NCBI GenBank assembly: GCA_947447955.1
Contig: CANFLS010000008.1
Coordinates: forward strand, 1 to 64,000
DNA length: 64,000 nt
Origin: Flavobacteriales bacterium
GTDB lineage: Bacteria > Bacteroidota > Bacteroidia > NS11-12g > UBA955
Direction: 5' to 3'
Shown here: positions 3,677 through 59,347 of the stretch, piece after piece
Numbering within the stretch: position 1 is the stretch's first letter
How the letters are laid out: each line of letters starts with the position of its first letter
Program-made: the position numbers and the translations under genes
The notes under the pieces: model-generated
The model's database searches: none
Told to the model about the DNA's origin: nothing
What the model saw: only the letters and a program-made list of their open reading frames with translations

Positions 3677-4174
3677 ATGTCATCGGTTATTATTGAAAAT
3701 GCAACAAAAAACGATATCCCTCAAATTTTGGATATTGTAAATCATTATATAGAAAATGATACCTGCATTTACGATTTAGAACCAAGAGCGCTTGAAAAAC
3801 AAATGGAATGGTTTGAAAACCAAACTTCTAACAACTACCCTGTTTTGGTGGCCAAAATCAACAATCAATTGATTGGATTTGCTTCTTATTCGCAATTTAG
3901 ACCCAAGGTGGGATATAAATTCTGCATGGAACATTCAGTTTATGTAGCACATAATCAAAAAGGAAATGGCGTTGGAAAAATGCTTTTGCAAGATTTAATT
4001 AAAATTGCTGAAGAACAAAAAATCCATACACTCATAGGGGGAATTGATGCCAACAACCAAAATAGCATTGAATTTCACAAACAATTTGGATTTGAAATTG
4101 TAGGTCGAATGAACGAAGTTGGTTATAAATTTAACCGTTGGCTCGATTTGGTTTGGATGCAAAAAACGATTTAA
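3677..4174 (+). CDS. GNAT N-acetyltransferase, phosphinothricin acetyltransferase-like
   Basis: A single GNAT domain of 165 residues that transfers an acetyl group from acetyl-CoA to an amine. The pattern resembles the Pat/YncA group: the N-terminal segment NDIPQILDIVNHYI, a strand SVYVAHNQKGNGVGKMLL containing the acetyl-CoA loop (QKGNGVGK), and GGIDANNQNSIEFHKQFGF near the end. The natural substrate is unknown; relatives acetylate phosphinothricin, methionine sulfoximine or other amino-acid analogues. An in-frame ATG at 3638 would add 13 hydrophobic residues, but the -7 element at 3645-3652 lies inside that extension, so I chose 3677. Three nt separate its stop from the convergent AlkB-like gene. 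Confidence 0.85.
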   Translation: MSSVIIENATKNDIPQILDIVNHYIENDTCIYDLEPRALEKQMEWFENQTSNNYPVLVAKINNQLIGFASYSQFRPKVGYKFCMEHSVYVAHNQKGNGVGKMLLQDLIKIAEEQKIHTLIGGIDANNQNSIEFHKQFGFEIVGRMNEVGYKFNRWLDLVWMQKTI

Positions 4175-4177
4175 GAA

Positions 4178-5236
4178 TTACAATCCGTTTTCCGAATTAA
4201 ATTTCTTCACCAAAGGATTCATTACCCTAACCCACAGCGGGTAAACCAAACTCAAAACCATCATTCCAGGATAACCAGTAGGCATTTGCGGCGCATTTTC
4301 AAGACTCCTTAATTCTTGGTATTTCTTGGTAGATTTGGCGTGGTGATCGGAATGCCTCGACAATTCAAACAGCAACAATCGGCCAATAATATGATTGGAA
4401 TTCCATGAATGTTTTTCAGTTACAATTTCATACAACCCCGATTCTGTTTTTTGCCTTACCAATCCGTAGTGTTCGATGTAATTAATGGTTTCTAAAAGAA
4501 TAGCTCCTAAAAAACCAGACAGCCTCATCATTATTGCGGCCTCAAGTCCCCCAAGAAAATAAATCCCTATTAAAAAACCCAACTGAATCAATTGAAATTG
4601 CAACATTTGATTTGAGGGATGAAATTTAGGCAGATTCAATCGTTTTAGCCTTTCAAACTCCAAATTCCACGCCGAAATCCAAACAAAAAACATAGACCTA
4701 AACCAAAACGAGTAAATAGGTTCATTGTAGCGCCCAGAAGAAGGATCTTCAGGAGTACCAACATATTTGTGATGCCCTCGGTTATGTTCAATGAAAAACT
4801 GCATATAAAAAGAGGTCAACAGCAATGTTTTTGCTAAAAATTGATCTAGCCAATTTGGCCTATGGCCGAGTTCATGGGCCACATTGATTCCATAAGTGCC
4901 ACACATAATTCCCATGGCAAATGCTTTTCCAAATAACTCTAAGTAAGAATGATTAATTGACAAATGCGCATCGGTAATATACCAGTAAACAAAAAACAGA
5001 TGAATGGGAACAACTGCATAAATTACGATGTCGTACATTTTGTTGTCTACTGCATTTTGGGCTAAATCGTCTTGACCGAATTTACCACCGTGGTTTAAAA
5101 TTAATTCTAGAATGGGAATGATTCCAAACACAAAAAACGCAGCAAACCAAGTCATGAGTCCTTGCGATTGAAACGAAATTGCCACGGAAGCGGCTGGCAA
5201 TAATGAAATAATATAGCGAAAAGGTATAAAATTCAT
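4178..5236 (-). CDS. alkB: AlkB-type membrane di-iron alkane 1-monooxygenase
   Basis: An integral-membrane non-haem di-iron hydroxylase of 352 residues. It carries the family's histidine boxes: HELGHR, EHNRGHHKYVGTPEDPSS, NYIEHYGL and RHSDHHA, set among hydrophobic helices. Characterised AlkB proteins hydroxylate the terminal carbon of alkanes using electrons from rubredoxin. NYIEHYGL, which distinguishes AlkB from fatty-acid desaturases, is present. No rubredoxin, rubredoxin reductase or AlkS-type regulator lies nearby, so redox partners must be elsewhere. The true substrate, n-alkane or another hydrophobic chain, cannot be read from sequence. The gene is monocistronic, convergent with the GNAT gene and divergent from typA. 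Confidence 0.92.
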   Translation of the reverse strand: MNFIPFRYIISLLPAASVAISFQSQGLMTWFAAFFVFGIIPILELILNHGGKFGQDDLAQNAVDNKMYDIVIYAVVPIHLFFVYWYITDAHLSINHSYLELFGKAFAMGIMCGTYGINVAHELGHRPNWLDQFLAKTLLLTSFYMQFFIEHNRGHHKYVGTPEDPSSGRYNEPIYSFWFRSMFFVWISAWNLEFERLKRLNLPKFHPSNQMLQFQLIQLGFLIGIYFLGGLEAAIMMRLSGFLGAILLETINYIEHYGLVRQKTESGLYEIVTEKHSWNSNHIIGRLLLFELSRHSDHHAKSTKKYQELRSLENAPQMPTGYPGMMVLSLVYPLWVRVMNPLVKKFNSENGL

Positions 5237-5351
5237 AGCGAATACAATAATAGCAAATAAGATAAATATATATTGTTTTTTTATTATTATTCACAAAAAA
5301 GATTGAGTTATGATATAAATTCACGAAATTTGCGCAATTTTTAATTTGAAC

Positions 5352-8634: not shown

Positions 8635-8635
8635 T

Positions 8636-8650: not shown

Positions 8651-9286
8651 ATGAAAATTCATCGTTTTACCTTTAATCCTTTACAAGAAAACACCTACAT
8701 CGCTTGGTGTGAAGAAACATTGAACTGTGCCATCTTCGATGCTGGTAATTACGATTACTCTGAACATGAACAAATTCGTGCCTTTATTGATAAATTAGGA
8801 CTCACTCCTACCCAATTGCTTGGTACTCACGCACATATTGACCACATTTTTGGAAATTGGTGGATCAAACAAGTGTATAATATTCCCTATTACCTTCACA
8901 AAGACGATGTAATTATGATTGACAGATCTGAAACCATGGCTTCTCTTTGGAATTTAAATTACACCACCTCTCCCCAACCCGACTTCTTTCTAGAAGGCGG
9001 TCAAACCATTCAAATTGGAATTGGAGAATTGGAAGTTCGTTTTGTGCCAGGACATGCGCCTGGACATGTGGTTTTTGTTTCTCACAAAGATGAATGGGCG
9101 GTTGTTGGCGATACCATTTTTGAGGGAAGTATTGGCAGAACCGACTTACCAGGTGGAAACCACGATTTACTCCTTCAGAAAATCAAAGAAGAAATATTTA
9201 CCCTTCCCGATAATTTCACTCTGTACCCAGGGCATGGGGTTGATACCACTGTAGACAATGAAAAACAAAATAATCCGTTTTTCTAA
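8651..9286 (+). CDS. MBL-fold metallohydrolase, glyoxalase II-like
   Basis: A 211-residue metallo-beta-lactamase-fold hydrolase. Metal ligands are visible as THAHIDH (H60, H62, D64, H65), H135 or H139 in GHAPGH, D154 in GDTIFEGSIGRTDLPGG, and the histidine of YPGHG. The GRTDLPGG loop and short length resemble the YcbL / glyoxalase II-like group, which hydrolyse thioesters such as S-lactoylglutathione in vitro; the substrate in a glutathione-poor Bacteroidota cell is uncertain. Probably transcribed with menD 19 nt downstream. Confidence 0.85.
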   Translation: MKIHRFTFNPLQENTYIAWCEETLNCAIFDAGNYDYSEHEQIRAFIDKLGLTPTQLLGTHAHIDHIFGNWWIKQVYNIPYYLHKDDVIMIDRSETMASLWNLNYTTSPQPDFFLEGGQTIQIGIGELEVRFVPGHAPGHVVFVSHKDEWAVVGDTIFEGSIGRTDLPGGNHDLLLQKIKEEIFTLPDNFTLYPGHGVDTTVDNEKQNNPFF

Positions 9287-12651: not shown

Positions 12652-13042
12652 TGATGATCTGATTTACAAGCCTTTCGAGCTTTTCCTTTTTTAATATTTT
12701 TTGTCCTTGCTCGCCTTCTGCAACGATTCTTTCTCCCACTTTCGCAACAAAGGTGCAATCGATTTGATGTCCCTCAAGAACAGAAACGGTAGCAATAAAT
12801 TCAACCGTATCACCAAGCATTGCGGGTGACTTATGTCTGATATTCAAAAATGTGCCAATGCCTTCTTCATCTGCTTCTTTCATTTGAAGGACAAATTGGC
12901 GGCAGGCCCATTCGGCATCTCTTCCCAAGGCAAATGTGCTATAAAATGGATGCACATTTCCAGTTTCGAAGGTTGCCAAATCTGATTGTTCAACTAAATG
13001 AACAAACGTTAATTGATTTCCAACTTCGTAAATATTTTTCAT
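12644..13042 (-). CDS. Hotdog-fold thioesterase, fluoroacetyl-CoA thioesterase-like
   Basis: A 132-residue hotdog-fold protein. The pattern of a long central helix with VHPFYSTFALGRDAEWACRQ, followed by LNIRHKSPAMLGDTVEFIA and a strand ending EGEQGQKIL, resembles the FlK-like acyl-CoA thioesterase group. Likely activity is hydrolysis of a small acyl-CoA. It is coupled by overlaps to the bacilliredoxin gene (4 nt) and smpB (8 nt). Substrate is not predictable. Confidence 0.75.
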   Translation of the reverse strand: MKNIYEVGNQLTFVHLVEQSDLATFETGNVHPFYSTFALGRDAEWACRQFVLQMKEADEEGIGTFLNIRHKSPAMLGDTVEFIATVSVLEGHQIDCTFVAKVGERIVAEGEQGQKILKKEKLERLVNQIING

Positions 13043-13509: not shown

Positions 13510-14719
13510 GGTATCTTATATTTACTGCAAATTAAACAAATTTGATGCCAAAACAGAAGACATTTCCGAAATAAATTCAAAAATAATCGGTGAACTTCCT
13601 CTGAACCTTGGCAAACTCCAAAAATTACATGGAGATTTCTTTCCTATTGCAGCCACCCAACATGAATTACAGAAGAAAGCACTGAAAAAAATACCGAGTT
13701 TTATTCATGCAGGTTGTATCCTCGAAAAAAGAGCATACGAGCAATGCACCTCTGAAGATGTAGCCCTTTGGAAAGCCCATTTCTTTCCCTCAAAAAAGCT
13801 TTTGAGCCTTACGGGCGGACTTGGCGTTGACGAATGGGCTTGGGCCAAATCTGGAACCCGGGTAACATCCATCGATATTGATTCAAACCTTAACCACTTG
13901 GCGAAATACAATTTCGATAAACTAAAGGTTGAAATTGACCGACAAACATCCGACGCCAACGATTTTATATCTTCTAATGATTTAAGCAATTACGATTTAA
14001 TTTACATTGATCCAGACCGCAGAGACGGCAATACCAGAATCACCAATCAAGTTGCGAGTTACAGTCCCAACATCTTTGAAATTATTCAAAACAATCAAAA
14101 TACAAACCTCAATTGGCTCATCAAATTGAGTCCAATGGTTGACACCGATTTTATTGAAAACCATCTCCCTGGAAATAAAAGCTATTACGCCATTGTTGTA
14201 AGGCAAGAAGTGAAAGAGCTGTTGGTTCATATTCAATTCACAGATAGTCAATCAAAAACAAAAAGAGAAGTCGTTTCAATTGATGGAAGCAAATACAGCT
14301 ATTCAAGTCAAGTTTTTAATCCAGAGAGATTAGCTCCTTCAAACATGGATTACATATTCGAGCCTAACGGAGGAATTATGTGTTTGAAATTGAATCGTGA
14401 TTTACACCAATTGAATGGATTTACTCCACTCAATATTCAGCATACTTTTTTCAAATGCAATGTAATTATTCCCTCAGAAATGGGAAGAACTTTTATGCCC
14501 ATTCACTCCGAGCCTATTATTGGGGGACTGAATAAAATTGGGAAAACAATTAAGTCTGATTACAAAATCGAAGCGGCATCAATTACCGCAAGGGATTGTA
14601 AATTAACCACAGAAGAAATCAGGAAAAGTTTGGGATTACAAGAAAGCAATACCCATTATTTAATTCTTACAAAAAGGGGAAATGAATTTATTGCTTGGAT
14701 ATGCGTAAAACCTACTTAG
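13508..14719 (+). CDS. SAM-dependent methyltransferase with THUMP-like C-terminus
   Basis: A 403-residue class I methyltransferase found across Bacteroidota. The N-terminal part has the family signature QCTSEDVALWKA; the SAM fold follows with motif I LSLTGGLGVDEWAWA, an acidic VTSIDID strand, and the catalytic-type motif YIDPDRRD. The C-terminal ~100 residues resemble the THUMP-like domain of this family and suggest an RNA substrate. An upstream GTG at 13457 would extend the protein across the promoter, so I chose the ATG at 13508, 8 nt after the -7 element. The target nucleoside is unknown. Its stop overlaps that of hemD by 8 nt. Confidence 0.75.
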   Translation: MVSYIYCKLNKFDAKTEDISEINSKIIGELPLNLGKLQKLHGDFFPIAATQHELQKKALKKIPSFIHAGCILEKRAYEQCTSEDVALWKAHFFPSKKLLSLTGGLGVDEWAWAKSGTRVTSIDIDSNLNHLAKYNFDKLKVEIDRQTSDANDFISSNDLSNYDLIYIDPDRRDGNTRITNQVASYSPNIFEIIQNNQNTNLNWLIKLSPMVDTDFIENHLPGNKSYYAIVVRQEVKELLVHIQFTDSQSKTKREVVSIDGSKYSYSSQVFNPERLAPSNMDYIFEPNGGIMCLKLNRDLHQLNGFTPLNIQHTFFKCNVIIPSEMGRTFMPIHSEPIIGGLNKIGKTIKSDYKIEAASITARDCKLTTEEIRKSLGLQESNTHYLILTKRGNEFIAWICVKPT

Positions 14720-16519: not shown

Positions 16520-17644
16520 GTGGCTGGTATTTATATCCATATTCCCTTTTGTAGAAAAGCATGTAATTATTGCAATTTCCATTTTAGCACTTCCTTAAAA
16601 GTTGTTGACCAAATGGTAAATGCCATTGCTACGGAGTTGAAATTACGCAGTTTTGAACTTGGAAATTCATCCATTGAAACCATCTATTTTGGTGGCGGAA
16701 CCCCTTCCCTCCTATCTGAAAATCATTTAGATCTAATATTCAATGCCATTGAATCTAATTTTAATTTGAGGGACATTCAAGAAATTACACTTGAAGCCAA
16801 TCCGGAAGATATTACAACGGAATCGCTTAAAACTTGGAAAAAGTTTAAAATAAATAGGCTCAGCATTGGCGTGCAATCACTGAACGAAGCTGAGTTAACC
16901 TTCATGAATAGGAACCACAACGCAGTTCAATCTAAGGCAGCCATTGAACTTGCCTTAAATGCCAACTTTAAAAACATTACCCTAGATTTGATTTATGGGA
17001 GTCCTTGGAAAACGGATGAAGATTGGAAATCTGAATTGACTTGGGCGTTGAATGCTGGCATTACCCATTTATCGGCTTATGCTTTAACCGTTGAGCCCAA
17101 AACACAGTTAGCCAATCAGATTAGCAAAAATATATTGCCATCACCCACCGACGAAAGAATGGAATCGCAATTCAATGTCCTTCAAGAATATATTTCAAAA
17201 AACGGTTGGGATGCCTACGAAATTAGCAATTATTGTAAACCTAGCCACAGGGCAATTCACAATTCAAATTATTGGGCTGGCAAACCTTATTTGGGTGTTG
17301 GTCCTTCGGCCCATTCTTTTGATGGACAAAATAACCGCCGTTGTAATGTTTCAAACAACGCCATGTATATGAAAGGTGTTGAAAACGAAACCGTTTACTG
17401 GGAAAACGAAGAACTTACAATTGAAAATAAATTCAACGAATATTTGATGACGAAACTTCGCACTGCTGAGGGAATCGATTTGAATTATGTTAATTCCATC
17501 AATTCAACGTGGAAAAGCAATAACAACAAAACCATTGAAAAACTGATCAGGAATGAGAATATTGCCATGAATGACAATGGGTTGTATTTAACCAACAGTG
17601 GCAAATTGATTTCCGATTACATTATTTCTTTGCTCATGGTTTAA
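16520..17644 (+). CDS. hemW: Radical SAM haem chaperone HemW
   Basis: HemW carries haem and a radical-SAM [4Fe-4S] cluster and delivers haem to respiratory enzymes; it was long mislabelled coproporphyrinogen III oxidase. The 374-residue protein begins MAGIYIHIPFC and has the cluster motif CxxxCxxC (C11, C15, C18), the SAM motif YFGGGTPS, and LTLEANP-like and LSIGVQS segments. A TTG nine nt upstream is in frame, but its TTG belongs to a -7-like TTTG, so the GTG at 16520, which reproduces the family N-terminus, is preferred. A terminator follows. Confidence 0.93.
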   Translation: MAGIYIHIPFCRKACNYCNFHFSTSLKVVDQMVNAIATELKLRSFELGNSSIETIYFGGGTPSLLSENHLDLIFNAIESNFNLRDIQEITLEANPEDITTESLKTWKKFKINRLSIGVQSLNEAELTFMNRNHNAVQSKAAIELALNANFKNITLDLIYGSPWKTDEDWKSELTWALNAGITHLSAYALTVEPKTQLANQISKNILPSPTDERMESQFNVLQEYISKNGWDAYEISNYCKPSHRAIHNSNYWAGKPYLGVGPSAHSFDGQNNRRCNVSNNAMYMKGVENETVYWENEELTIENKFNEYLMTKLRTAEGIDLNYVNSINSTWKSNNNKTIEKLIRNENIAMNDNGLYLTNSGKLISDYIISLLMV

Positions 17645-24300: not shown

Positions 24301-24643
24301 CGAGCAAAAAGATCCTTTGCTAATTTATAAAATTGAGAGTTTTGAATTGTTTGGCAAAATGCTACAACGCATTAACCACAAAGTGCTTGGATTGTTATTT
24401 AGAACCAGAATTTTAGACGACAATCAAGTGGGTGAAGCGCGCAAACCAATGCGCAAAGACACCCCAAAAGTGGTTGCTAGCAAAGAAGAATTCAGCAATG
24501 GTTCAGATAGCCAAGAAGCCATTGAAAATTCTGCACCTAAAGTCCCTCAAAATCCAATTAGAAATGAACTTAAAGTAGGCCGCAACGACGCTTGTCCTTG
24601 TGGTAGCGGCAAAAAATTCAAATCTTGTCACGGCAAAGATTAA
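21326..24643 (+). CDS. secA: Protein translocase ATPase SecA
   Basis: SecA drives preproteins through SecYEG. At 1105 residues it is longer than E. coli SecA (901), as is usual in Bacteroidota. Visible are Walker A MSTGEGKT, DEVDSVLID (Walker B / DEAD box), the preprotein-crosslinking region, NMAGRGTDI and QLRGRAGRQGDPG of the second nucleotide-binding fold, helical scaffold and wing domains, and the C-terminal zinc motif CPCGSGKKFKSCHG for SecB or lipid contact. An extra segment follows NBF1 with YGTNNEFGFDYLRDNMA. Its stop lies 3 nt before a DUF5522 gene, so the two are co-transcribed. Confidence 0.98.
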   Translation: MFGNIINNIAKIFGGNAAEKAMKEIMPIVAEINQYYDSYQSISTDELRNKTAEFKSRISEYLSDIDTDIADAHSRVNALTASEIDEKEEIYQQITDLEKKRDEKLEEVLKEILPEAFATVKEAAHRLTLNDEITCTALDIDRQLATKKPNVRIEGDKAIFANEWLAAGGKIKWNMVHYDVQLIGGIALHQGNISEMSTGEGKTLVSTLPAYLNALGGRGVHMVTVNDYLARRDCEWNGPLFNFLGLTVDCLEYHSPNSEERRMAYKADITYGTNNEFGFDYLRDNMAHETDELVQGKHHFAMIDEVDSVLIDDARTPLIISGPTPKGDIQEFEALKPRIQSLVDAQKKYINNALSDARKLIAEGKSGHKEGEGGLALLRAHRGLPKNKALIKFLGESGMRNVLTKTENNYMQDQQKEMPLADAPLFFTIDEKTNSVDLTEKGIELITGNGEDSQFFILPDVGNEIAEIEKSTASAEEKIRLKDILMQEFAEKSERIHSVQQLLKAYTLFEIDVEYILQDGKVKIVDEQTGRIMEGRRYSDGLHQAIEAKENVRVEAATQTYATITLQNYFRMYHKLAGMTGTAETEAQELWDIYKLGVKVIPTNKPVIRIDKEDLVYKTKREKYNAVIDEVVALSQAGRPVLVGTTSVEVSELLARMLKIRGIKHNVLNAKQHQREAEIVAEAGYPSAVTIATNMAGRGTDIKISDEVKASGGLAIIGTERHDSRRVDRQLRGRAGRQGDPGSSRFYVSLEDDLMRIFGAERVSNLMDKIGYKEGDVIEHSWMTKTIERNQKRMEQNNFGIRKRLLEYDDVMNKQRSNIYRMRKNALWGDKLSIDLRNMLFNWCNDTVINCKDQGSYEELELEVIRTLAAGLPFDEATFDSTKTDDLVDMLFADLSSKYRNKLEKIAEQAYPVFQHIRSEQGDRIENVVVPMTDGTHQFQLTVSMQKALDTQCRSLSNDFEKSTTLQTIDDEWKEHLRELDELKQSTGNAQYEQKDPLLIYKIESFELFGKMLQRINHKVLGLLFRTRILDDNQVGEARKPMRKDTPKVVASKEEFSNGSDSQEAIENSAPKVPQNPIRNELKVGRNDACPCGSGKKFKSCHGKD

Positions 24644-26420: not shown

Positions 26421-27449
26421 ATGTATTCTTTAATTAAGTTTTTCCTCTTTCTTCTTCCACCCGAAAAAGCGCACAATGTTGCGTTAGATTTGATGGAAAA
26501 AGCACTTAAATTTCCCTTGCTCGGATCATACCTCAAACATAGTTTTAAAAGCGACAAACAAGTACCCGTTACCGTTGCCGGAATTACCTTTCCAAATATG
26601 ATTGGTTTGGCAGCCGGATTTGATAAAGATGCAAAACGATTGCATCTTCTCAAAGAATTCGGTTTTGGCTTTGTTGAAGTTGGTACCGTTACCCCTAAAC
26701 CCCAAGCCGGAAATCCCAAGCCCCGACTTTTCCGTATCCCTCAAGATTATGCCCTCATCAATAGAATGGGCTTCAATAATAGAGGCGTGGAAGATATGGT
26801 GGATCGTTTGAAAAATAGACCTGAAGGACTCATTGTAGGCGGGAATATTGGTAAAAACAAAGCCACACCAAACGAAAAAGCAATCATTGATTACGTTTAT
26901 TGCTTTGAAATGCTCTACGACCATGTTGATTACATTGCCGTAAATATTTCTAGCCCAAATACGCCTGGCCTTCGCGACCTTCAAGAAGAGTCGTTCATTG
27001 TGGGATTGTTTGAACAACTTCATGTAATTAGAAATAAAAAAGAAATATCTAAACCTATTTTCTTGAAATTGGCTCCTGATTTCCAAATGAACGCCATCAA
27101 AGAACTTGTGAGAATTATTAAAATTGCAAAAGTAGACGGACTTATTGCAACCAATACTACCGTTTCAAGAGAAAAATTATCAATTTCTAGTGATGAAATT
27201 GATAAAATTGGGGCAGGTGGATTATCTGGTCAACCCGTTTTTGAAGCCAGTAACGCCATGCTCGCCGCCTTGAGTATTGAATTGGGTGGAAAAATTCCAA
27301 TTATTGGAGTAGGCGGTATTTTTAACAGTCAAGATGCTTCTGAAAAGTTAATGCGTGGCGCCAACCTCATTCAAGTGTATACTGGTTTTGTTTATGAGGG
27401 ACCTTGGATTGTGAAAAATATTTTAAATTCTATCAATTATAACGATTAA
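26421..27449 (+). CDS. pyrD: Dihydroorotate dehydrogenase (quinone), class 2
   Basis: A membrane-associated flavoenzyme that oxidises dihydroorotate to orotate and passes electrons to quinone. The 342-residue length, the N-terminal amphipathic helices (SLIKFFLFLLPPEKAHNVAL) and the serine in NISSPNTPGLR mark class 2. FMN contacts include GLAAGFDKDAK, NRMGFNN and IGVGGIF. It lies 35 nt after purH and 18 nt before the nuclease gene, so pur-pyr genes may share a transcript. Menaquinone from the MenD pathway would be the likely acceptor. Confidence 0.97.
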   Translation: MYSLIKFFLFLLPPEKAHNVALDLMEKALKFPLLGSYLKHSFKSDKQVPVTVAGITFPNMIGLAAGFDKDAKRLHLLKEFGFGFVEVGTVTPKPQAGNPKPRLFRIPQDYALINRMGFNNRGVEDMVDRLKNRPEGLIVGGNIGKNKATPNEKAIIDYVYCFEMLYDHVDYIAVNISSPNTPGLRDLQEESFIVGLFEQLHVIRNKKEISKPIFLKLAPDFQMNAIKELVRIIKIAKVDGLIATNTTVSREKLSISSDEIDKIGAGGLSGQPVFEASNAMLAALSIELGGKIPIIGVGGIFNSQDASEKLMRGANLIQVYTGFVYEGPWIVKNILNSINYND

Positions 27450-27467: not shown

Positions 27468-28238
27468 GTGAAAAAAATCATCCCATTTGCCATTCTTTGT
27501 GTTGTTCTGCTTTTTAGCGGCTTCTCTTTTATTGGCCCACAAAAATCATCCCTTCCTCTAGAATGCCCTGCCCTTTTAGTAGGAGAAACCCCAACCAAGC
27601 ATATTGGGTATATCACTTCTTATAACCACCAACACGAACAATCAAATTGGGTAGCCTATACCCTCTCCCCTCAAAAATTAATGGGAGTTGTTGAACGAAG
27701 CAATAAGTTTTCACCCGACCCACTCATTGCTCCAGAAACTGCCAATACCCACGATTATACCAAATCGGGATTTGACAGAGGACATTTGGCTCCCGCTGCC
27801 GATATGAAATATTCCGAAACCGCAATGAAAGAATGTTTTTACATGAGTAATATTTCTCCCCAAGCACCCAAATTCAATCGTGGAATTTGGAAAAAACTTG
27901 AAGAAAAAGTAAGAGACTGGGCCAGTCAAACCTCACAAATATTTATTGTTACAGGTCCAATACTAAACAATCGCCTGGTAAATAAAATAGGCAGAGAACA
28001 TCAAATTTCAGTTCCTGAGTATTTTTTCAAAGCCGTTGTTGATACCTCCAAGTCTGGAAATGGCATTGCCTTTCTCATGAAAAACCAAGGAAGCCAACTT
28101 CCCTTAAAATCATTTGTAATTACCATCGACAGTTTGGAACACCTCACCGGCCGTAATTTCTATTCCCAAATCCCTCAAAAGAAACAAGAAAAAATAGAAA
28201 AAACTGTGCACTTTGAGCACTGGGATTTAAACGATTAA
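27468..28238 (+). CDS. Secreted DNA/RNA non-specific endonuclease (NUC1 family)
   Basis: A 256-residue nuclease with an N-terminal export signal (about residues 1-22, CVVLLFSGFSF). The beta-beta-alpha metal motif is present: FDRGHLAPAADM with catalytic H106, N128 in FYMSNISPQ and N137 in KFNRGIW. Family members cut DNA and RNA without strong specificity and are usually extracellular or periplasmic, so a scavenging role is likely. The start is a GTG. Its stop overlaps that of the convergent downstream gene as TTAA. Confidence 0.92.
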   Translation: MKKIIPFAILCVVLLFSGFSFIGPQKSSLPLECPALLVGETPTKHIGYITSYNHQHEQSNWVAYTLSPQKLMGVVERSNKFSPDPLIAPETANTHDYTKSGFDRGHLAPAADMKYSETAMKECFYMSNISPQAPKFNRGIWKKLEEKVRDWASQTSQIFIVTGPILNNRLVNKIGREHQISVPEYFFKAVVDTSKSGNGIAFLMKNQGSQLPLKSFVITIDSLEHLTGRNFYSQIPQKKQEKIEKTVHFEHWDLND

Positions 28239-42861: not shown

Positions 42862-42870
42862 TTGAGGGAT
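42862..42870 (+). other. Intergenic copy of TTGAGGGAT motif
   Basis: One of three intergenic copies of the over-represented 8-mer TTGAGGGA. It lies 11 nt upstream of the coiled-coil gene start and next to a terminator. Confidence 0.5.
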
Positions 42871-44949: not shown

Positions 44950-46230
44950 TTAAAATTTACTAAACCATTTCATCATCGCCAATCTTTTAATCAACAATAG
45001 GTTAAACCCTAACTGTAGACGGCTTTTAAATAACCAATTTATAGAAATTAAATTCGAAATCAGCAAAACAAGCAAGGCAAAATCCATACTTATTATCACC
45101 GAATTCAAACCAAAACCTAGCTTATTTCCTATTGAAACCACCAATATTAAGGCAATAAATGCAATAAAATGGTTCTTAAATAATGCTTTGAAACGGTTCA
45201 TGCCATGCAAATAATTGCCAATTGCAGTTGACATCGCCGAAAAAATAATTCCTGGAATTAACCAAATAAATTCCATTTTTAACATGGCGAAATTTTCACC
45301 AAAGACCATAATAAAAAGATCATTCGGAATGATTATCACAACCATACAAATAACCAATGTTCCTAATAGTGAAAAATCAATATATCTGCGGATAAGCCTT
45401 TCATGAAAAACCTTACTTGAATTCCTTAACACCCTTGAATGAATTACGGTGCCAAAACTTCCTGAAAATATCCAAACCGTATCTGCAATTAGTAAGGCAT
45501 TTGCAAATACTCCCGCTTCTGAATCCCCCAATAAATAAGCGATGAACCACAGAGGCGACTTCATTACTAAAAACAGCATGAAATGTCCTAACTGAGCCCA
45601 AAGTCCCTCAAAAAAAACACCCTTAGGAGGCGACAAAACAGGAAATGCCGATTTCCACATATTTCTAGTTTTAACCATTGAAAAACATAGTACTCCAAAG
45701 GTTACAGTAGCCAAAACCTCAAGCATAGATTGTATGTTTAATGATACCACATCTTGCGCTGGAATTAAAAATGCCACCAACAAAAGCGACAATAATTTCA
45801 ATCCTTCTAACACCACTTGCAACTTATTTCTGCGACCAATCCAACTCTGACTTTGATAGATGTTGTACTGAATATTTAACCAAGCCAAAGACAATCCTTG
45901 AACCAACAACGGAATCAACAATGCCCATGAAATGTGAAATACAAAGTGAAGAACAGTTCCTGAAATACCCAAAACTCCGAGTGAAAATAAGGCTACCCAA
46001 GGCAAAATTTGAGCCGGACTATATTTCACCAACCAATTTGCCATGGCGCTGCCGGCTAAGAGTTCGCCAAACATCAAAGACACTTGCAAATACAGCAAAA
46101 GGATGCTCATTTGCCCTCTTCCCGAAGCCCCCAAATACCGCGAATAAACCACAACCACTCCAAAGGATATTGCCGCTTTGGCAATTTGCCAACCGTAGGT
46201 TTTTAAAGGACTATTTTCGCTCATTGTCAA
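44950..46230 (-). CDS. Polysaccharide flippase-like membrane protein (Wzx/MOP)
   Basis: A 426-residue protein with 12 or so transmembrane helices, starting with KTYGWQIAKAAISFGVVVVYSRYLGASGRGQMS, the N-terminal signature of O-antigen and polysaccharide flippases. These flip undecaprenyl-linked glycans across the inner membrane. It overlaps the asparagine-synthase-like gene by 20 nt and is last of a three-gene minus-strand unit with a glycosyltransferase. Substrate is unknown. An ATG two codons downstream (46224) is an alternative start. Confidence 0.82.
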   Translation of the reverse strand: MTMSENSPLKTYGWQIAKAAISFGVVVVYSRYLGASGRGQMSILLLYLQVSLMFGELLAGSAMANWLVKYSPAQILPWVALFSLGVLGISGTVLHFVFHISWALLIPLLVQGLSLAWLNIQYNIYQSQSWIGRRNKLQVVLEGLKLLSLLLVAFLIPAQDVVSLNIQSMLEVLATVTFGVLCFSMVKTRNMWKSAFPVLSPPKGVFFEGLWAQLGHFMLFLVMKSPLWFIAYLLGDSEAGVFANALLIADTVWIFSGSFGTVIHSRVLRNSSKVFHERLIRRYIDFSLLGTLVICMVVIIIPNDLFIMVFGENFAMLKMEFIWLIPGIIFSAMSTAIGNYLHGMNRFKALFKNHFIAFIALILVVSIGNKLGFGLNSVIISMDFALLVLLISNLISINWLFKSRLQLGFNLLLIKRLAMMKWFSKF

Positions 46231-48136
46231 GTTCTAACTTAAAATATCCCAACGAAGCAATTCTAAAATAATGCTGTAACTCTCTGGCATTTAATGCAGA
46301 AAAATGCTGCAAAAGTTTATTTCGATAATCGCGTTTAATAAAACCATCCAAACCTTCATACATCAAAGCATCTTTCCATGCCATACCATGTTTTTGGGTC
46401 AACCAAGTTTCCGGCACAGAAAATCCTTTTTTATCGGTTCTGGCGTATAAATCAGGAGGCAAGAGGTCTTTAAAAGCATTTCTTAAAATCCCTTTTGGCA
46501 ACCCACCTTCCATCAATTCATGTAATTTAAAATTCCCTAAATATTTTTGAGGGATATGCAAATCGTCGGCAAATGGGTTTCTGCTTTCCAATTGGAATGC
46601 CATTCCATTGCGGTCTTCCCATGCCAACATTTGATGCAATTTTCCGTAAAATTGATCACCTTGCAACGACCCATAATAATCGCCCAACATCATCTCCTCC
46701 ACCCCATTCAATTTCGGGTGAAGCATGATTAACGGATCTTCTAATAAATTGGCAGTGACTTTATTTCCCCAAACAGATTTTTCTATTTTCTGTTTTTGAG
46801 AATCCGAAAGGGCATTTCTCAACTTCCTTTTCAAGAAGAATTTCAATGCTTCCTTATAAGTTATTGGCCAATTATTTTGAGATTTCGATAAGTGTTTTCT
46901 TTCACTAAAAAGTGATTGAATAAAGTAATCGGGATAACCCCCAAACAACTCATCGGCTCCTTGCCCATTGAACAAAACGGTTACTCCAGTTTGACGAACC
47001 CTTTCGCATAAAGCAAAGTGAGCCAAATTATTCCAAGCTACAGGGGCTCGATTTGTATATGAAATCATTTTTGGCAGCAATTCTGAATCAAATGATTCAA
47101 CCAAAATTTCATGGTGAATCCCCCCATTTTTTGCTACCACCATTTTCTGCCAATTAGATTCATTGCCAGCTAAATTATTCGATGCCACAGAAAATAAATC
47201 CAATTTAGCCTCATTGCCTAATAAATGTCGGGCAATGCCAACCAAAACTGCGCTATCTATTCCACCGCTTACTGCAAATCCCAAACGGACATCACTCCTG
47301 AGTCTACTTTTCATAGATTCAAGAAGCATTTCTCTGAGAGAACTATTGTTTTGAAGGATGTTCCTTTCAGGGTAATACCACTGCGAAACTTTGAATTCAC
47401 GGCTAGTGGGAAACCATTTTATCAAATGACCCGCTGTTAACGTTTGAATATTTTCAAACCATGGATAAACATCGGTCATGCCGTGTTTCAAATGGGCAAA
47501 AACAGCTTTGTTATTGAGTTCGTTTTTACCTAAAATAAATCTCAAGGGTTGCTCTTCGCTCGCAAACGCAAATATTTCATTGGTTTTGGTGTAAAACAAA
47601 GGCTTAACACCTGTTCTATCGCGAACAACAGTGTAAGAATTTTCCAAGCTATCGTAAATGCAAAAAGCAAAAAAACCATCCAACAATTTCAAACATTTTT
47701 CTTGTTTGAATGCCCAAAGCTGAACGAGAATTTCCGAATCCGTATTGCTGTAATTGGTTAATCCAAATTGCGACTGAAGTTCTAAATAGTTAAAAATCTC
47801 TCCGTTGTAGGTCAACCAATATCTACCTGATGGGTCACAAATAGGTTGATGTCCCAAATGCCCCAACCCAATAATAGACAAACGTTTGTGCATCAACATG
47901 CCATTTATACTCAACGATAAAGACTCAACCAAATGTTGCTTAGGAAGGTAGTTTGTATTTTCAGAAGGGTAAATTTTATGACCTACAGGAATTGGTGTCG
48001 ACTTGTTTGAAATTAGGAGAAAACCTTCATCATCTGGGCCTCTATGTGCCAAGGCACTACCCAAAATATTGGAATTTCTCAACCAAAATTCGGCAGATTG
48101 AGCAACCGTAGACGATATTCCTCCAATGCCACACAT
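46211..48136 (-). CDS. asnB: Asparagine synthase (glutamine-hydrolysing)-like amidotransferase
   Basis: A 641-residue class II glutamine amidotransferase fused to an ATP-pyrophosphatase synthase domain. The catalytic Cys2 (MCGIGG), RGPDDEG, YNGEIFNY and glutaminase loop are present, and the synthetase P-loop is AVSGGIDS. Members in polysaccharide clusters often amidate a uronic acid or other sugar rather than aspartate; the placement between a GT4 glycosyltransferase and a flippase makes that reading plausible. It overlaps both neighbours (1 nt and 20 nt). The name asnB denotes the family, not proven asparagine synthesis. Confidence 0.85.
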   Translation of the reverse strand: MCGIGGISSTVAQSAEFWLRNSNILGSALAHRGPDDEGFLLISNKSTPIPVGHKIYPSENTNYLPKQHLVESLSLSINGMLMHKRLSIIGLGHLGHQPICDPSGRYWLTYNGEIFNYLELQSQFGLTNYSNTDSEILVQLWAFKQEKCLKLLDGFFAFCIYDSLENSYTVVRDRTGVKPLFYTKTNEIFAFASEEQPLRFILGKNELNNKAVFAHLKHGMTDVYPWFENIQTLTAGHLIKWFPTSREFKVSQWYYPERNILQNNSSLREMLLESMKSRLRSDVRLGFAVSGGIDSAVLVGIARHLLGNEAKLDLFSVASNNLAGNESNWQKMVVAKNGGIHHEILVESFDSELLPKMISYTNRAPVAWNNLAHFALCERVRQTGVTVLFNGQGADELFGGYPDYFIQSLFSERKHLSKSQNNWPITYKEALKFFLKRKLRNALSDSQKQKIEKSVWGNKVTANLLEDPLIMLHPKLNGVEEMMLGDYYGSLQGDQFYGKLHQMLAWEDRNGMAFQLESRNPFADDLHIPQKYLGNFKLHELMEGGLPKGILRNAFKDLLPPDLYARTDKKGFSVPETWLTQKHGMAWKDALMYEGLDGFIKRDYRNKLLQHFSALNARELQHYFRIASLGYFKLELDNERK

Positions 48137-49362
48137 TAGCTAATCGACAAGTACAATTGGTTTAACTCCTGAGAAATGGATGAAGCACTATATTTTGCTT
48201 TGGCTGCAATTTCAATATTTTCATATTTGCCACTGAGCACATTTTGCTTCATTATTTTCATTGACTGATATAACGTTTCTATGTTGCGATTGTTGTATGC
48301 CGACCAAGTTTTTTCATTGATTTCTAAATCGAATAATATTCCGTTAGAATCGTTAACCATGTTCGAAATACCACCTACATTCGATGAAATCACCGGTAAA
48401 CTGGTACAAAGTGCTTCCGCAATGACGCAAGGTGCATTTTCAGAGGATGAAGCCATAAGAAGACAATGGCTTTTTCTGAAAATTTCATTGATTCTTGAGG
48501 GACTTTCCTTTTCGTGAATTTCCCAAACGAACTGATCTTGACTGTTTGACAATTCAGCAGACATTTGAGTTGAAAATTGGGTTTGATAATATTCCTTGGT
48601 TGATTTATCTGCACCTATAAATTCAATGCTTATAGCATTATCTTCGGCATATAGTTTTAAAAACGCTGCAAAAATGAGTGGAATATTTTTCCTGTTTTCA
48701 AAGTTTGAAACATGAACAAAATTGAATTTTTCGTATTTCGCATTCTCTGTTGGTACAAAAAAATCTGAGGGAACCACGTTTGCAAATTCAATCGTTGGAA
48801 TGGTTTTGCCCAATAATTTTTGCATTTCATGATGCAAAGGCAAACTCACTTGTGCTGCATAATCAGTATATTTCCAAGTTTGCTTGATTGCAAATTGAAA
48901 CCATTGATTTCTGGTTAAAAAATGGTCAGGGACGTGACTATTATAAATTGCCCAATGTTCGGTGAGCACCATTTTGTTTATTTTCAATTTTCGTTTTATC
49001 CAAGTTGCCAAAATTCCGCATTTATCAGGGGCATGAACATGAAGGATATCAAAAACGTTGTTTCTTTTAACCTGTTTTAGCAATTGAACATAAAACCAGC
49101 AGTAATAGATGACCAAATTTAGCGGCTTTAATAAGCCCGACTGAAATTGGGGTATTGGAATCCAAATAAGAGGAAAGGGATACTTTTCTGTTACAGGCAT
49201 GTTCTTCTCTTGACCAATAAAGTAGGTTGCACCATGAACTACGGTAATATCTATTTGGGAACTGCAGGCAAGTGCATGTCTGTAAATAAAATTGCCGGCA
49301 TATGGATTGGCTTTAGATGGAAACCAACCTACAATCCAAAGGGCCGACAGTTTTTTGTGCAT
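48136..49362 (-). CDS. Glycosyltransferase family 4
   Basis: A 408-residue GT-B-fold retaining glycosyltransferase. The N-terminal Rossmann region starts LSALWIVGWFPSKANPYAGNFI; the nucleotide-sugar domain has FVHVSNFENRKNIPLIFAAF, and the GT4 motif SSSENAPCVIAEALCTSLPVISS with a conserved acidic residue. It probably adds a sugar to a lipid-linked glycan. It is first of the GT4-asnB-flippase unit and shares 1 nt with asnB. A perfect -7 element ends 5 nt before the ATG. Confidence 0.88.
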   Translation of the reverse strand: MHKKLSALWIVGWFPSKANPYAGNFIYRHALACSSQIDITVVHGATYFIGQEKNMPVTEKYPFPLIWIPIPQFQSGLLKPLNLVIYYCWFYVQLLKQVKRNNVFDILHVHAPDKCGILATWIKRKLKINKMVLTEHWAIYNSHVPDHFLTRNQWFQFAIKQTWKYTDYAAQVSLPLHHEMQKLLGKTIPTIEFANVVPSDFFVPTENAKYEKFNFVHVSNFENRKNIPLIFAAFLKLYAEDNAISIEFIGADKSTKEYYQTQFSTQMSAELSNSQDQFVWEIHEKESPSRINEIFRKSHCLLMASSSENAPCVIAEALCTSLPVISSNVGGISNMVNDSNGILFDLEINEKTWSAYNNRNIETLYQSMKIMKQNVLSGKYENIEIAAKAKYSASSISQELNQLYLSIS

Positions 49363-51527: not shown

Positions 51528-51536
51528 GTCCCTCAA
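51528..51536 (-). other. Intergenic copy of TTGAGGGAC motif
   Basis: One of three intergenic copies of TTGAGGGA. The 221-nt gap between the divergent queD and fsa starts otherwise holds only the fsa promoter; no gene or hairpin was seen. Confidence 0.5.
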
Positions 51537-53071: not shown

Positions 53072-54994
53072 TTATTTTACTTCTTCGAAGTCAACATCTT
53101 GAACTTCGTCGGCAGCTTTTCCGCCATTTGCATTACCTGCATTTGGGTTTTCTTGTCCTGGTTGTCCTTCAGCACCTGGTTCACCACCTGTTGCGTTGTA
53201 CATATCCTGACTAGCCGCTTGCCAAGCATCATTCAATGCAGCACTATGGGTATCTATATCGGCAAAGTTCTTCGCAGCAACCGCTTCTTTCAATTTGGCA
53301 ACAGCCTCTTCGATTGCAGTCTTTTTCTCTGCTGGAATTTTGTCGCCATACTCTTTCAATTGTTTTTCAGTACTGAAAACCAAAGAATCGGCACCATTCA
53401 CTTTATCGGCTTCTTCTTTGCGCTTCATATCCGCTTCAGCGTTCATTTCAGCGTCTTTTTTCATTTTCTCGATATCTTCCTTGCTCAATCCGCTACTTGC
53501 TTCAATTCTGATTTTTTGCTCTTTTCCAGTTGCTTTGTCTTTTGCACTTACGTTCAAAATACCGTTGGCATCAATATCAAATGTTACTTCAATTTGAGGG
53601 ACACCACGTGGTGCAGGAGGAATGCTATCTAAAATGAATCTACCAATTGTTTTGTTATCGGCAGCCATTGGGCGTTCACCTTGAATGATATGAATTTCAA
53701 CCGATGGTTGATTGTCCATAGCTGTACTAAACGTTTCTGTTTTTCTTGAAGGAATGGTTGTGTTTGATTCAATCATTTTGGTCATTACAGCACCCATTGT
53801 TTCAATTCCCAAACTCAAAGGAGATACATCTAAAAGAACGATATCTTTAACTTCACCTGTTAACACACCTCCTTGAATAGCTGCACCAATTGCAACAACT
53901 TCATCTGGGTTAACCCCTTTGCTTGGTGCTTTACCAAAGAATTCTTCAACCAATTTTTGAATTGCAGGGATACGTGTAGAACCACCTACCAAAATTACTT
54001 CGTCAATTTGGCTTGAACTCAAACGGGCATCAGCCAACGCTTTTTTACAAGGCTCTAATGTTCTTTGAATCAAAGATTCAGCCAATTGCTCAAACTTACT
54101 TCTGGTCATTTTTCTAACCAAATGCTTAGGCACACCGTCAACTGCAGTTACATAAGGTAAGTTGATATCAGTTTCCGTGCTGCTCGACAATTCAATTTTC
54201 GCTTTTTCAGCCGCTTCTTTCAAACGTTGTAAAGCCATTGGATCTTTGCGCAAATCTATATTTTCGTCAGACTTAAATTCGTCTGCCAACCAATCAATAA
54301 TTACTTGGTCAAAATCGTCACCACCTAAGTGAGTATCACCATTGGTAGATTTAACTTCAAACACACCGTCTCCCAATTCAAGGATAGAAACGTCGAATGT
54401 TCCACCACCTAAATCGTAAACAGCAATTTTAATATCACGGTCAAGTTTATCCAAACCATAAGCCAACGCTGCAGCTGTTGGTTCGTTGATAATACGTTCT
54501 ACTTTCAAACCAGCAATTTCACCTGCTTCTTTGGTAGCTTGACGTTGAGAGTCATTAAAGTATGCAGGAACAGTAATAACCGCTCTTGTCACTTCTTGAC
54601 CCAAATAATCTTCAGCAGTTTTCTTCATTTTCTGAAGAATCATCGCACTCACTTCTTGTGGGGTAAAGTTACGATCGCCAATTTTCACACGAGGAGTATC
54701 GTTGTCACCTTTGGTTAATTCATAAGGTACACGTTCCATTTCTTTCAACATAGAAGAATATTTTTCTCCCATGAATCTTTTGATAGACTGCACAGTATGG
54801 GTTGGGTTGGTAATGGCTTGACGTTTTGCAGGGTCTCCTACTTTACGCTCGCCGTTTCCGTTGTCCATAAAAGCAACAATTGATGGTGTTGTTCTACGAC
54901 CTTCGCTGTTTGCAATTACTACAGGTTCGTTACCCTCTAACACTGCTACACAACTGTTGGTTGTTCCTAAGTCAATTCCTATTATTTTACTCAT
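53072..54994 (-). CDS. dnaK: Molecular chaperone DnaK (Hsp70)
   Basis: DnaK uses ATP to bind and release unfolded proteins with DnaJ and GrpE. The 640-residue protein has the actin-like ATPase (~1-385: [47 protein letters not shown]), the linker [16 protein letters not shown], the substrate-binding domain, and a helical lid with a Gly/Asn-rich spacer before the terminal acidic [11 protein letters not shown]. dnaJ and grpE are not adjacent. Near the motif at 53594-53602 its valine is encoded by GTC, as required by the TTGAGGGAC motif on the other strand. Confidence 0.99.
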
Positions 54995-55130: not shown

Positions 55131-55139
55131 TTGAGGGAT
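55131..55139 (+). other. Intergenic copy of TTGAGGGAT motif
   Basis: One of three intergenic copies of TTGAGGGA, 20 nt after the stop of the DUF4249 gene, in the 165-nt gap before dnaK. Confidence 0.5.
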
Positions 55140-57100: not shown

Positions 57101-57136
57101 GGTTAGACGGATTAGACAGGTTAGACGGGTTAGACA
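57101..57136 (+). repeat. 9-bp tandem repeat, GGTTAGACN, four units
   Basis: Units GGTTAGACG, GATTAGACA, GGTTAGACG, GGTTAGACA run head to tail right after panB. The 9-nt spacing continues in decayed form (GGTTTATTA, GGTTTGTCA, GGTTTAATT) up to the first hairpin array. Confidence 0.85.
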
Positions 57137-57167
57137 GATTTTTTGGTTTATTAGGTTTGTCAGGTTT

Positions 57168-57240
57168 AATTAAACAGGCGATAATCGTAAACAGCCTAAG
57201 CCGTCAACAGCGAAGTGTAAACAGCCGATAGGCGTCAACT
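57168..57240 (+). repeat. Mini-hairpin array 1 with 7-nt linkers
   Basis: Five 7-nt linkers (TTAAACA, GTAAACA, GTCAACA, GTAAACA, GTCAACT) alternate with four short modules of 7-10 nt: GGCGATAATC, GCCTAAGCC, GCGAAGT and GCCGATAGGC. Most modules can fold into tiny hairpins (CGAT-A-ATCG, GCC-GATA-GGC). The last 35 nt are 34/35 identical to the end of array 2. Confidence 0.75.
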
Positions 57241-57245
57241 AATTG

Positions 57246-57263
57246 GGTTAGACAGGTTAGACG
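57246..57263 (+). repeat. 9-bp tandem repeat, two further units
   Basis: GGTTAGACA and GGTTAGACG, the same unit as at 57101-57136, now between the two hairpin arrays. Confidence 0.8.
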
Positions 57264-57310
57264 AATGGGTTTATAAAAGGTTGAAAGGGTTATTTTTAGC
57301 ACCTACCATT

Positions 57311-57366
57311 AATTAAACAGCCGAAGGCGTAAACAGCGAAGCGTAAACAGCCGATAGGCGTCAACT
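57311..57366 (+). repeat. Mini-hairpin array 2 with 7-nt linkers
   Basis: Linkers TTAAACA, GTAAACA, GTAAACA, GTCAACT alternate with three modules that fold perfectly: GCC-GAA-GGC (57320-57328), GC-GAA-GC (57336-57342) and GCC-GATA-GGC (57350-57359). Begins with AATTAAACAG as does array 1. Confidence 0.8.
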
Positions 57367-57385
57367 GGCGTTAGTCATAAACTCT

Positions 57386-57421
57386 AAAAAAAAAGGTGCG
57401 AATTTCTTCGCACCTTTTTTT
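57386..57421 (-). terminator. Bidirectional intrinsic terminator
   Basis: AAAGGTGCGAA, loop TTTC, TTCGCACCTTT with long A and T tracts, serving the zinc-ribbon protein gene and reads from panB. Confidence 0.9.
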
Positions 57422-57437
57422 ATTCCTAACGCTACTA

Positions 57438-58235
57438 TTACTTAGCGGTAGTCAAACGCATTTTTCTGCGTGTTGGTTTTTCTTCTTTTACTTCGGCAAA
57501 TGCAGCGATACCGCTTACATGTTGATCCACCATAATACGACCGCAATGTTCACAGTCAATAATTTTATAATGGGCACGAATGTCAGAGTGACGTTGAGGT
57601 GGAATTTTAGAGAAACAACCACCGCAAGATCCACGAACAATAGGAGCAACAGCAACCCCGTTTTTCATATTTTCACGAATTCTGTGGTAAGCACGGAAAT
57701 AACGCTCATCTAATTTCTTAGCAGCATTTTCACGGTCTTTGTTTAACTTTTGAATTTCCTCTTCGTTCTCTTTCTCAATTTCAGTCAATTCTGCTTTTTT
57801 GAATTCCAAATCCGCTTTGCGACTTTCTAACGCAGCTTTTGTGCTTGTTAAAACTTCATTTTTAGCATCAATTTGTTTTACAAAATCGCGAATTTTCTTT
57901 TCAGCAGAAAGAATTTCTAAGCCAGCAATTTCTTTTTCTTTGTCAATTGCTTCGAATTCACGGCTGTTTTTAATATTGTTTAATTGATCTTCATATTTAT
58001 CAATTAATCTTTGGAAATCTTTAATTGCTAATTTTTTGTTGGCAACCTCTGTATCTAAAGAAGTAATTTCTTCTTGAATATGATTTACTCTGGTTTCAAA
58101 ACCAGCGATATCATCTTCCAAATCCGATACTTCCATCGGTAGTTCACCCAATACAGCTTTCAAATTGTCTAATTTATTGTCAATTTGTTGTAGCTTCCAA
58201 AGGTCTTGTAGTTTTTTCTCAACGGTTACGTCCAT
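57438..58235 (-). CDS. Coiled-coil protein with C4-type zinc ribbon
   Basis: A 265-residue cytoplasmic protein. Residues ~10-185 are a long antiparallel coiled coil; the C-terminus has a four-Cys zinc ribbon, CGGC (SCGGCF) and CEHC (DCEHCGR), about 20 residues apart. It matches the CdsZ / zf-RING_7 family, which is linked to type III secretion chaperoning in Chlamydia but of unknown function in Bacteroidota. It ends near the terminator and lies 5 nt after the NIF3 gene on the same strand, the usual pairing in Bacteroidota. Confidence 0.85.
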   Translation of the reverse strand: MDVTVEKKLQDLWKLQQIDNKLDNLKAVLGELPMEVSDLEDDIAGFETRVNHIQEEITSLDTEVANKKLAIKDFQRLIDKYEDQLNNIKNSREFEAIDKEKEIAGLEILSAEKKIRDFVKQIDAKNEVLTSTKAALESRKADLEFKKAELTEIEKENEEEIQKLNKDRENAAKKLDERYFRAYHRIRENMKNGVAVAPIVRGSCGGCFSKIPPQRHSDIRAHYKIIDCEHCGRIMVDQHVSGIAAFAEVKEEKPTRRKMRLTTAK

Positions 58236-58240
58236 GTTGT

Positions 58241-59347
58241 TTATCGATAATATTGAATAGGGTTGGTATTAGTTTGTGCAAAAATGGTTGCAAAATTACG
58301 GAATTTTTTTGACAAAATCTCGCTAAACAAATCAATCGTGTATTTTTCACTCTCAAAATGCCCAATATCGCAAATCATTAACTGCTTTTCCGCTGCAAAG
58401 AATTCGTGATATTTTATGTCCGAAGTTATGTAAACATCGACCTGTGCTGACTTTGCTGCGTTTATCAAAAATGAACCCGCACCACCACAAACCGCAACTT
58501 TGCGAATATTTTCTCCGAAAAATTCTGTATGCTTCACCACTTCCAATTCCATATTCTGCTTTAAATGCGCCAAAAACTCAGATTTCGACATCTCTTTCGG
58601 TAACATTCCCACGGCACCACTTCCATAACCGACCACTTCGTTGTTCAATGTTACCAAGTCATAAGCAACTTCTTCATACGGATGGGCTTCCCTCAAAACT
58701 TGCAACATTTCACTCGTTTGCCACTTCATAAAAACAACCTCTAAGCGCATTTCATTTCCGGTTTCTCGCTTGCCCAAACTTCCAGAATACGGATTAGAAC
58801 CTTCCATTGGTGTAAATGTTCCCTGTCCCTCAAAAGAAAAACCACATTCACCATAATTGCCAATGTTTCCAGCTCCAGCCGTAAACAAAGCATCTTGCAC
58901 CGCGGTGAAATGCGACGACGGAACATATACCCCCAACTTTACCAACAATCCCGTTTTAGGCTCAATTACAGATAGTTGACTCAAATGAAGCTTTTCGGCA
59001 ATTTTTTCATTCACTCCGTTTCTCAACACATTGTCGAGATTGGTATGGCAGGCATAAATGGAAATATTATTTTTGATGGCTTTGATCACCGCACGTTGCA
59101 CATCATTTTGTCCGGTTAGTCGTTTTAATCCCGAAAAAATAAGTGGATGGTGCGCAATTATCAAATTGCAGTTCTTTTCAATTGCTTCATCAACAATGGC
59201 TTCGGTACAATCTAAGCAAATGAGCGCTTGTTGTATGATTGCATTCTTATCTCCCACCAACAATCCGCTGTTGTCGTAGGACTCTTGCAAACTGGGTGGT
59301 GCTACCCTTTCAATTTCATGAATTATTTCGAATAGTTTTACAGACAT
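58241..59347 (-). CDS. NIF3-family dinuclear metal protein
   Basis: A 368-residue YbgI/NIF3 protein. Metal ligands are visible in AHHPLIF, CHTNLD and DIGHFESE. The inserted YqfO-type PII-like domain (~130-240) makes it longer than E. coli YbgI (247). The family, sometimes annotated as GTP cyclohydrolase type 2-like, has no agreed activity; hydrolase roles have been proposed. It is co-transcribed with the zinc-ribbon gene. A pair of TTGAGGGA motifs lies in its coding sequence 129 nt apart. Confidence 0.93.
   Translation of the reverse strand: MSVKLFEIIHEIERVAPPSLQESYDNSGLLVGDKNAIIQQALICLDCTEAIVDEAIEKNCNLIIAHHPLIFSGLKRLTGQNDVQRAVIKAIKNNISIYACHTNLDNVLRNGVNEKIAEKLHLSQLSVIEPKTGLLVKLGVYVPSSHFTAVQDALFTAGAGNIGNYGECGFSFEGQGTFTPMEGSNPYSGSLGKRETGNEMRLEVVFMKWQTSEMLQVLREAHPYEEVAYDLVTLNNEVVGYGSGAVGMLPKEMSKSEFLAHLKQNMELEVVKHTEFFGENIRKVAVCGGAGSFLINAAKSAQVDVYITSDIKYHEFFAAEKQLMICDIGHFESEKYTIDLFSEILSKKFRNFATIFAQTNTNPIQYYR

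Follow-up and report, generated by a model that had tools for sequence, protein, structure and literature searches.

The stretch of DNA analysed here, referred to as the window, comprises positions 1 to 64,000 of contig CANFLS010000008.1 from a Flavobacteriales bacterium (assembly GCA_947447955.1), and the element of interest is the octamer TTGAGGGA, which recurs on both strands. Its over-representation was first noted in a reading made without database searches (the sequence-only reading), in which 21 copies were counted against approximately two expected. This was reproduced: 21 exact copies were found, 10 on the plus and 11 on the minus strand, whereas 100 dinucleotide shuffles gave 2.1 copies on average and never more than 7. 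Under an order-2 Markov model, the top over-represented 7-, 8- and 9-mers of the window were TGAGGGA and its one-base extensions.

All 21 copies were exact matches and were grouped by their immediate context. The context TTTGAGGGAT was found on the plus strand at 4612..4619, 42862..42869, 46547..46554 and 55131..55138 and on the minus strand at 3717..3724, 28171..28178 and 34180..34187. The context TTTGAGGGAC occurred at 16766..16773 and 53594..53601 (plus) and at 24543..24550, 45604..45611, 51529..51536 and 58826..58833 (minus), and TTTGAGGGAA at 9120..9127 (plus), 13786..13793 and 58689..58696 (both minus). The remaining copies were in the contexts CTTGAGGGAC (12770..12777, minus; 48495..48502, plus), ATTGAGGGAC (29825..29832 and 30302..30309, both plus) and CTTGAGGGAT (26737..26744, minus). 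The plus-strand positions of the sequence-only reading were exact, whereas each of its minus-strand positions was one base too low. When the contexts were re-read, the word was followed by C or T in 18 of the 21 copies and directly preceded by T in 16, just as had been reported; the form one T longer, TTTGAGGGA, was accordingly present 16 times. The shorter core TGAGGGA was present in the 31 copies originally given. However, seven of the 38 GAGGGA occurrences lacked the preceding T rather than about four, and the G+C content was 38.0% rather than about 39%.

To place these counts in context, the whole genome containing the window (G000; 2.81 Mb in 70 contigs) was considered. Genome-wide figures are pattern counts, detailed statistics were obtained from 464 kb of G000 sequence, and the reversed (mirror) word of TTGAGGGA served as the control. 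In total, G000 contained 889 copies of TTGAGGGA (443+446 by strand) compared to 41 of the control (14+27), an excess of over twenty times, at a density of about one per 3.2 kb. Within the 464 kb, 153 copies were observed against 14.4 expected from an order-3 Markov model, so that the comparison with a Markov expectation proposed in the sequence-only reading placed the observed number far above expectation. The replichore skew, also raised there, was assessed from local GC skew in the same 464 kb. The leading to lagging ratio was 82:71 for the word (p=0.42), while the genes themselves do show a bias of 236:158.

The lack of polarity bears on the possible roles in chromosome biology. A translocase-orienting motif of the KOPS/SRS type was rejected, since such motifs show strict polarity from origin to terminus. 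A site for a non-polar chromosome-organising, segregation or global regulatory protein would be compatible with hundreds of sites on both strands that are conserved between species. Against such a protein, the spacing of the word was indistinguishable from Poisson (coefficient of variation 1.00, Kolmogorov–Smirnov p=0.60) with no positional clustering, and the intergenic preference was small (10.5% of sites compared to 7.1% of the DNA being noncoding). The same spacing data correct the earlier impression that the copies were spread evenly; they are in fact placed at random.

The extended motif consists of a T-rich upstream portion, the TTGAGGGA core and then YWT, and can also be written as T-rich sequence followed by TTTTGAGGGAYWT. 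In the 464 kb, T was present at frequencies of 0.60–0.70 at positions −1 to −3 before TGAGGGA, with a weaker T-richness out to −9. Downstream there were preferences for Y, W and T, with G depleted to 3% directly after the core. Also enriched were single-base variants at the first T, most of all its replacement by C, and an A-to-G change at the fourth base. The sites sit in unrelated sequence contexts, and the conserved T-tract and YWT flanks in such contexts suit a protein that reads double-stranded DNA.

With respect to genes, 57 of the 153 sites were sense, 80 antisense and 16 intergenic. The antisense copies were distributed over the three frames as 24/31/25, and the sense copies as 46 and 11 over the two frames that avoid a TGA stop. 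As the word occurs in both gene orientations and in all frames open to it, it is not codon-driven. The point in favour of a codon-pair or mutational by-product is the GAG-GGA frame, which accounts for at most 46 of the 153 sites; a common codon pair had been named as a potential refutation in the sequence-only reading, and it did not materialise. A codon-pair origin was ruled out for the bulk of the sites by the frame and strand distribution, and a dispersed repeat or transposon by the unrelated flanks. Together with the lack of enrichment in some congeneric sister species, described below, this makes a by-product or repeat origin scarcely credible.

The shape of the motif also bears on a restriction-modification or phage-defence methyltransferase, for which the word would be the target. 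Short, asymmetric and GA-rich, it is similar to the targets of type III or type IIG enzymes. However, restriction selects for avoidance and not for 20-fold enrichment, and a core of 8 bp flanked by degenerate T-tracts would be atypical, leaving this explanation very improbable. Two close inverted pairs of TTGAGGGA, approximately 15 bp apart and both intergenic, were seen in G000 (C1 near 220,709 and C4 near 646). These could form terminator-like stem-loops, as known for the Neisseria uptake words.

The distribution of the word was then determined in relatives. The genus sample comprised 14 draft metagenome-assembled genomes (MAGs; G000–G013), and scans covered 57 relatives and 395 genomes of the class. 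The relatives were uncultured Bacteroidota MAGs, mostly labelled Flavobacteriales or Bacteroidetes bacterium, and several originated from lakes, ponds and reservoirs. Six species of the genus had high counts of TTGAGGGA: G000 (889), G007 (780), G013 (760), G006 (558), G004 (494) and G009 (477). Among the relatives scanned, other genera were near background. The longer form TTTGAGGGA, with 577 copies in G000 compared to 24 of its control, was near the control level in nearly all of the 394 other class genomes, the top ratios there being few-fold and based on tens of copies. A class-wide bias was ruled out by these scans.

Other species of the genus carried variant words. TTGGGGGA had its main host in G012 (462 copies compared to 24 for the control). 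TCGGGGGA was enriched in four species, G002 (215/7, word/control), G011 (181/12), G005 (177/29) and G010 (135/10), and was also counted in G012 (93/4) and G000 (20/3). Outside the genus, it was at background in the 13 other genera that make up the rest of the family sample, except in one genome (82 compared to 47). All three words were strand-balanced in their hosts. The core common to them is TYGRGGGA, and the T-tract was retained across them, as TTTGGGGGAT in G012, TTTCGGGGG in G002 and TTTCGGGGGA in G011. At the sampled depth, G001, G003 and G008 showed no enriched word, with G003 giving a weak TTGGGGGA signal (46 compared to 15 for the control). The word is thus genus-specific, with dialects that differ between sister species.

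Some other repeated words were encountered in these genomes. The samples of G002 C1 and G011 C1 contained the further over-represented words GGTACCGGGT, GTCCATAGTC and CGGTGATCGG, which may be protein-repeat or regulatory words. Approximately 15 copies of a CGTCCAGAAGGTGGCGGATTCA-containing repeat were present in 40 kb of G007 (L025 or L026; C1/C2, first 20 kb), probably corresponding to repetitive coding sequence. Interspersed GATTAGACAG/GATTAGACGG repeat units were also seen, with one match to TTAGACAGATT in the window itself (57101–57137), 59 in G000:C1 (units at about 60–187 kb) and four in the 60 kb at the start of C2.

Conservation of individual TTGAGGGA sites in a related genome, a further check suggested in the sequence-only reading, was examined by aligning G000 with G007 (84.6% identity over 95 kb). 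The word was kept exactly at 23 of the 37 G000 sites and 23 of the 28 G007 sites, compared to 30% and 33% for permuted control words (p=8e-5 and 2e-7, respectively). Retention of the word between the two species is therefore about twice that of the controls. The mean column identity was 0.945 within the motif and 0.865 in the outer flanks.

The alignment also allowed shared and variable DNA to be compared in one 98-kb region, G000:C1 29,113–127,517, which is collinear with G007. The DNA that aligned to G007 contained 20 copies in 55.1 kb (0.363 per kb; Markov expectation 1.62), whereas the unaligned DNA contained three in 43.3 kb (0.069 per kb; Markov expectation 0.92), a significant scarcity for this one region (p=0.0025). 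The motif-poor cluster, G000:C1 93000–121100, has no counterpart in the collinear segment of G007. Its blocks at 93–109 and 112–121 kb carry genes for glycosyltransferases and sugar aminotransferases together with one for an O-antigen ligase (Wzy_C), and, judged by this predicted gene content, correspond to a typical exchanged surface-polysaccharide cluster of the O-antigen type. In the one foreign-looking island examined, the word is near background. Both this scarcity in a laterally variable island and a change of dialect at hundreds of sites would be unexpected for the site of a chromosome-organising or regulatory protein, and a role of that kind is considered improbable.

Genes for competence and recombination were then searched. 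ComEC was found in G000, and ComF was found as well, beside a secreted protein across the family (described below). DprA was matched in 11 of the 14 genomes of the genus, including nine of the 11 word-enriched species; the two without a match were only 74% and 58% complete. For the three background species, G001 (98% complete) gave no DprA match, G008 gave a match with one in-frame TAA (G008:C12 55911–56513), which is either a real loss or an assembly error, and G003 had an intact DprA. With the two incomplete genomes dropped, DprA was present in 9/9 enriched compared to 1/3 background species (p=0.045). No match to PF00437, the type II secretion/type IV pilus ATPase, was obtained above the cut-off in the genus by homology search. 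A ComP-type pilin receptor is therefore not expected; a type IV pilus receptor was set aside, and a route without pili is proposed. A PDDEXK_1 protein was found in every genome of the genus, including G001, G003 and G008, and in nearly all of them it was AddA-like in size (about 1,057–1,106 aa).

The main alternative is that TTGAGGGA is the Chi site of the genus, at which an AddAB/RecBCD-type nuclease would stop degrading DNA and load RecA, and which would be enriched on the core chromosome. The word is an over-represented octamer with a G-rich 3′ half, and its density of about one per 3.2 kb compares well to one per 4.5 kb for Chi in Escherichia coli and one per about 3 kb in Pseudomonas syringae (PMC5959072). 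Enrichment on core DNA is equally consistent with Chi, and the ubiquitous PDDEXK_1 protein would supply a candidate nuclease. On the other hand, the enrichment exceeds the 4–8-fold quoted for E. coli Chi, and the leading-strand skew of E. coli Chi was not seen. The motif also runs into T-tracts and YWT, which would not be expected if a short word were read from one strand, and its dialects change inside one genus. Furthermore, all three background species keep the PDDEXK_1 protein, whereas two of the three have either no DprA match or a broken DprA. Based on the dialects, the flanks and a loss that accompanies DprA and not the AddA-like protein, an uptake word is favoured and Chi appears unlikely.

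In most genomes of the family that were seen, comF is followed by a same-strand gene for a protein of approximately 1,060 aa. This protein begins with a signal-like segment, contains Calx-beta domains and carries a C-terminal sorting domain of the type IX secretion system (T9SS), together with a weak match to DUF5689. Orthologues could not be called from the Pfam match by itself and were resolved by a whole-protein search. DUF5689 is also named for a surface protein of Riemerella that is essential for transformation (PMC8459023). Residues 645–868, taken from a 92% identical orthologue (L180), were predicted by AlphaFold with a mean confidence (pLDDT) of 89.5 and a pTM of 0.84. The best folds from the Protein Data Bank (PDB) returned by Foldseek were oligonucleotide/oligosaccharide-binding (OB) fold DNA binders, namely p204 HINab with double-stranded DNA, Teb1, CST and POT1. 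The secreted protein is accordingly modelled with tandem OB-folds; for its N-terminal domain, the fold search returned nothing more specific than generic Ig-like and pilus-chaperone matches. The comF-linked protein is postulated as a candidate receptor of the word. Co-evolution of the receptor with the dialects is not claimed from its divergence, as the neighbouring comF diverges at the same pace and the pattern mirrors the phylogeny.

The sequence-only reading had offered four options without choosing between them: a Chi-like site, an uptake word, a modification target and a site for a chromosome-organising protein. Of these, the uptake word is best supported, based on the strand symmetry, the dialects, the T-tract flanks, the island scarcity and the partial co-loss with DprA. 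Polar organising sites of the KOPS type are disfavoured by the missing strand skew, and a modification target would not account for the over-representation. From these computed features we infer uptake itself, its sequence preference and a receptor, and conclude that TTGAGGGA is probably a DNA uptake sequence, by which cells of one genus of uncultured freshwater Bacteroidota recognise DNA of their own kind in natural transformation along a pilus-independent route. In the proposed mechanism, a cell-surface receptor would prefer double-stranded DNA carrying the word, such that DNA of the same species is preferentially taken up. The DNA would pass inward via ComEC and recombine with the aid of DprA and RecA. 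Biased uptake and recombination would enrich and maintain the word on both strands of shared DNA, recently exchanged DNA would lack it, and the species would have diverged into the dialects TTGAGGGA, TTGGGGGA and TCGGGGGA of the common core TYGRGGGA.

Several observations weigh against this conclusion. It rests on genome computation in uncultured organisms, the island evidence is limited to a single 98-kb region, and the DprA correlation is small and drawn from draft MAGs, with G003 having DprA yet almost no word. The 10- to 22-fold enrichment is below that of the uptake words of Haemophilus or Neisseria. For the putative receptor, the Foldseek TM-scores were low (0.3–0.4) and sequence search gave no significant PDB relative. 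Genera and species that lack the word also have the protein, so that its presence is no predictor of the word. Finally, the missing strand skew is no bar to Chi, which is unskewed in Bacillus subtilis, Staphylococcus aureus, Haemophilus influenzae and P. syringae (PMC5959072).

Uptake sequences are known from two proteobacterial families that possess type IV pili, the Neisseriaceae and the Pasteurellaceae. The DNA uptake sequences (DUS) of the Neisseriaceae (GCCGTCTGAA family, read by the minor pilin ComP) are likewise short and asymmetric, number in the hundreds over both strands and form dialects around a shared core. An in-frame TGA restricts their use in one of the reading frames, islands contain fewer of them, and inverted pairs occasionally occur in intergenic DNA. 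Their eight dialects track phylogeny, with an invariant core and TGA in all but one (PMC3630211), and their density is lower in islands (PMC7371117). The present word differs in its unrelated sequence, its Bacteroidota host, the lack of a type IV pilus ATPase by homology search and its density of 1 per 3.2 kb compared to 1 per 0.4–1.1 kb. The uptake signal sequences of the Pasteurellaceae (AAGTGCGGT and the Apl type) also occur on both strands with variants between clades, but are unrelated in sequence, depend on pilus-based machinery and are more numerous. They consist of a core with flanking A/T tracts, comparable to the flanks seen here.

Within the Bacteroidota, Riemerella transforms with ComEC, DprA, ComF and the DUF5689 surface protein (PMC8459023), and its system also includes RecA, an outer-membrane protein and a helix-hairpin-helix (HhH) protein. 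Its transformation does without recognised pilus proteins, as is proposed for the present genus, in which ComEC, DprA and ComF are likewise present. The locus arrangement differs, the surface proteins are likened by a weak DUF5689 match and an uptake word was not identified there; Riemerella columbina favours its own DNA, for which only raw A/T-rich k-mer counts are given (PMC7965970). A literature search found no uptake sequence described for the phylum, in agreement with the sequence-only reading, which knew of no such motif. It is possible, though doubtful, that the T9SS-exported protein modelled with tandem OB-folds beside comF reads the TYGRGGGA dialects on double-stranded DNA and thereby makes transformation self-selective, which would constitute a third, independently evolved uptake-sequence system whose receptor is unrelated to the known ones.

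If the word does act in uptake, self-recognition in transformation would have evolved again with other parts, and it would be explained how this uncultured freshwater lineage confines its recombination to within species. The word, for example as carried in TTTTGAGGGAC, would give work on Bacteroidota transformation a testable sequence.

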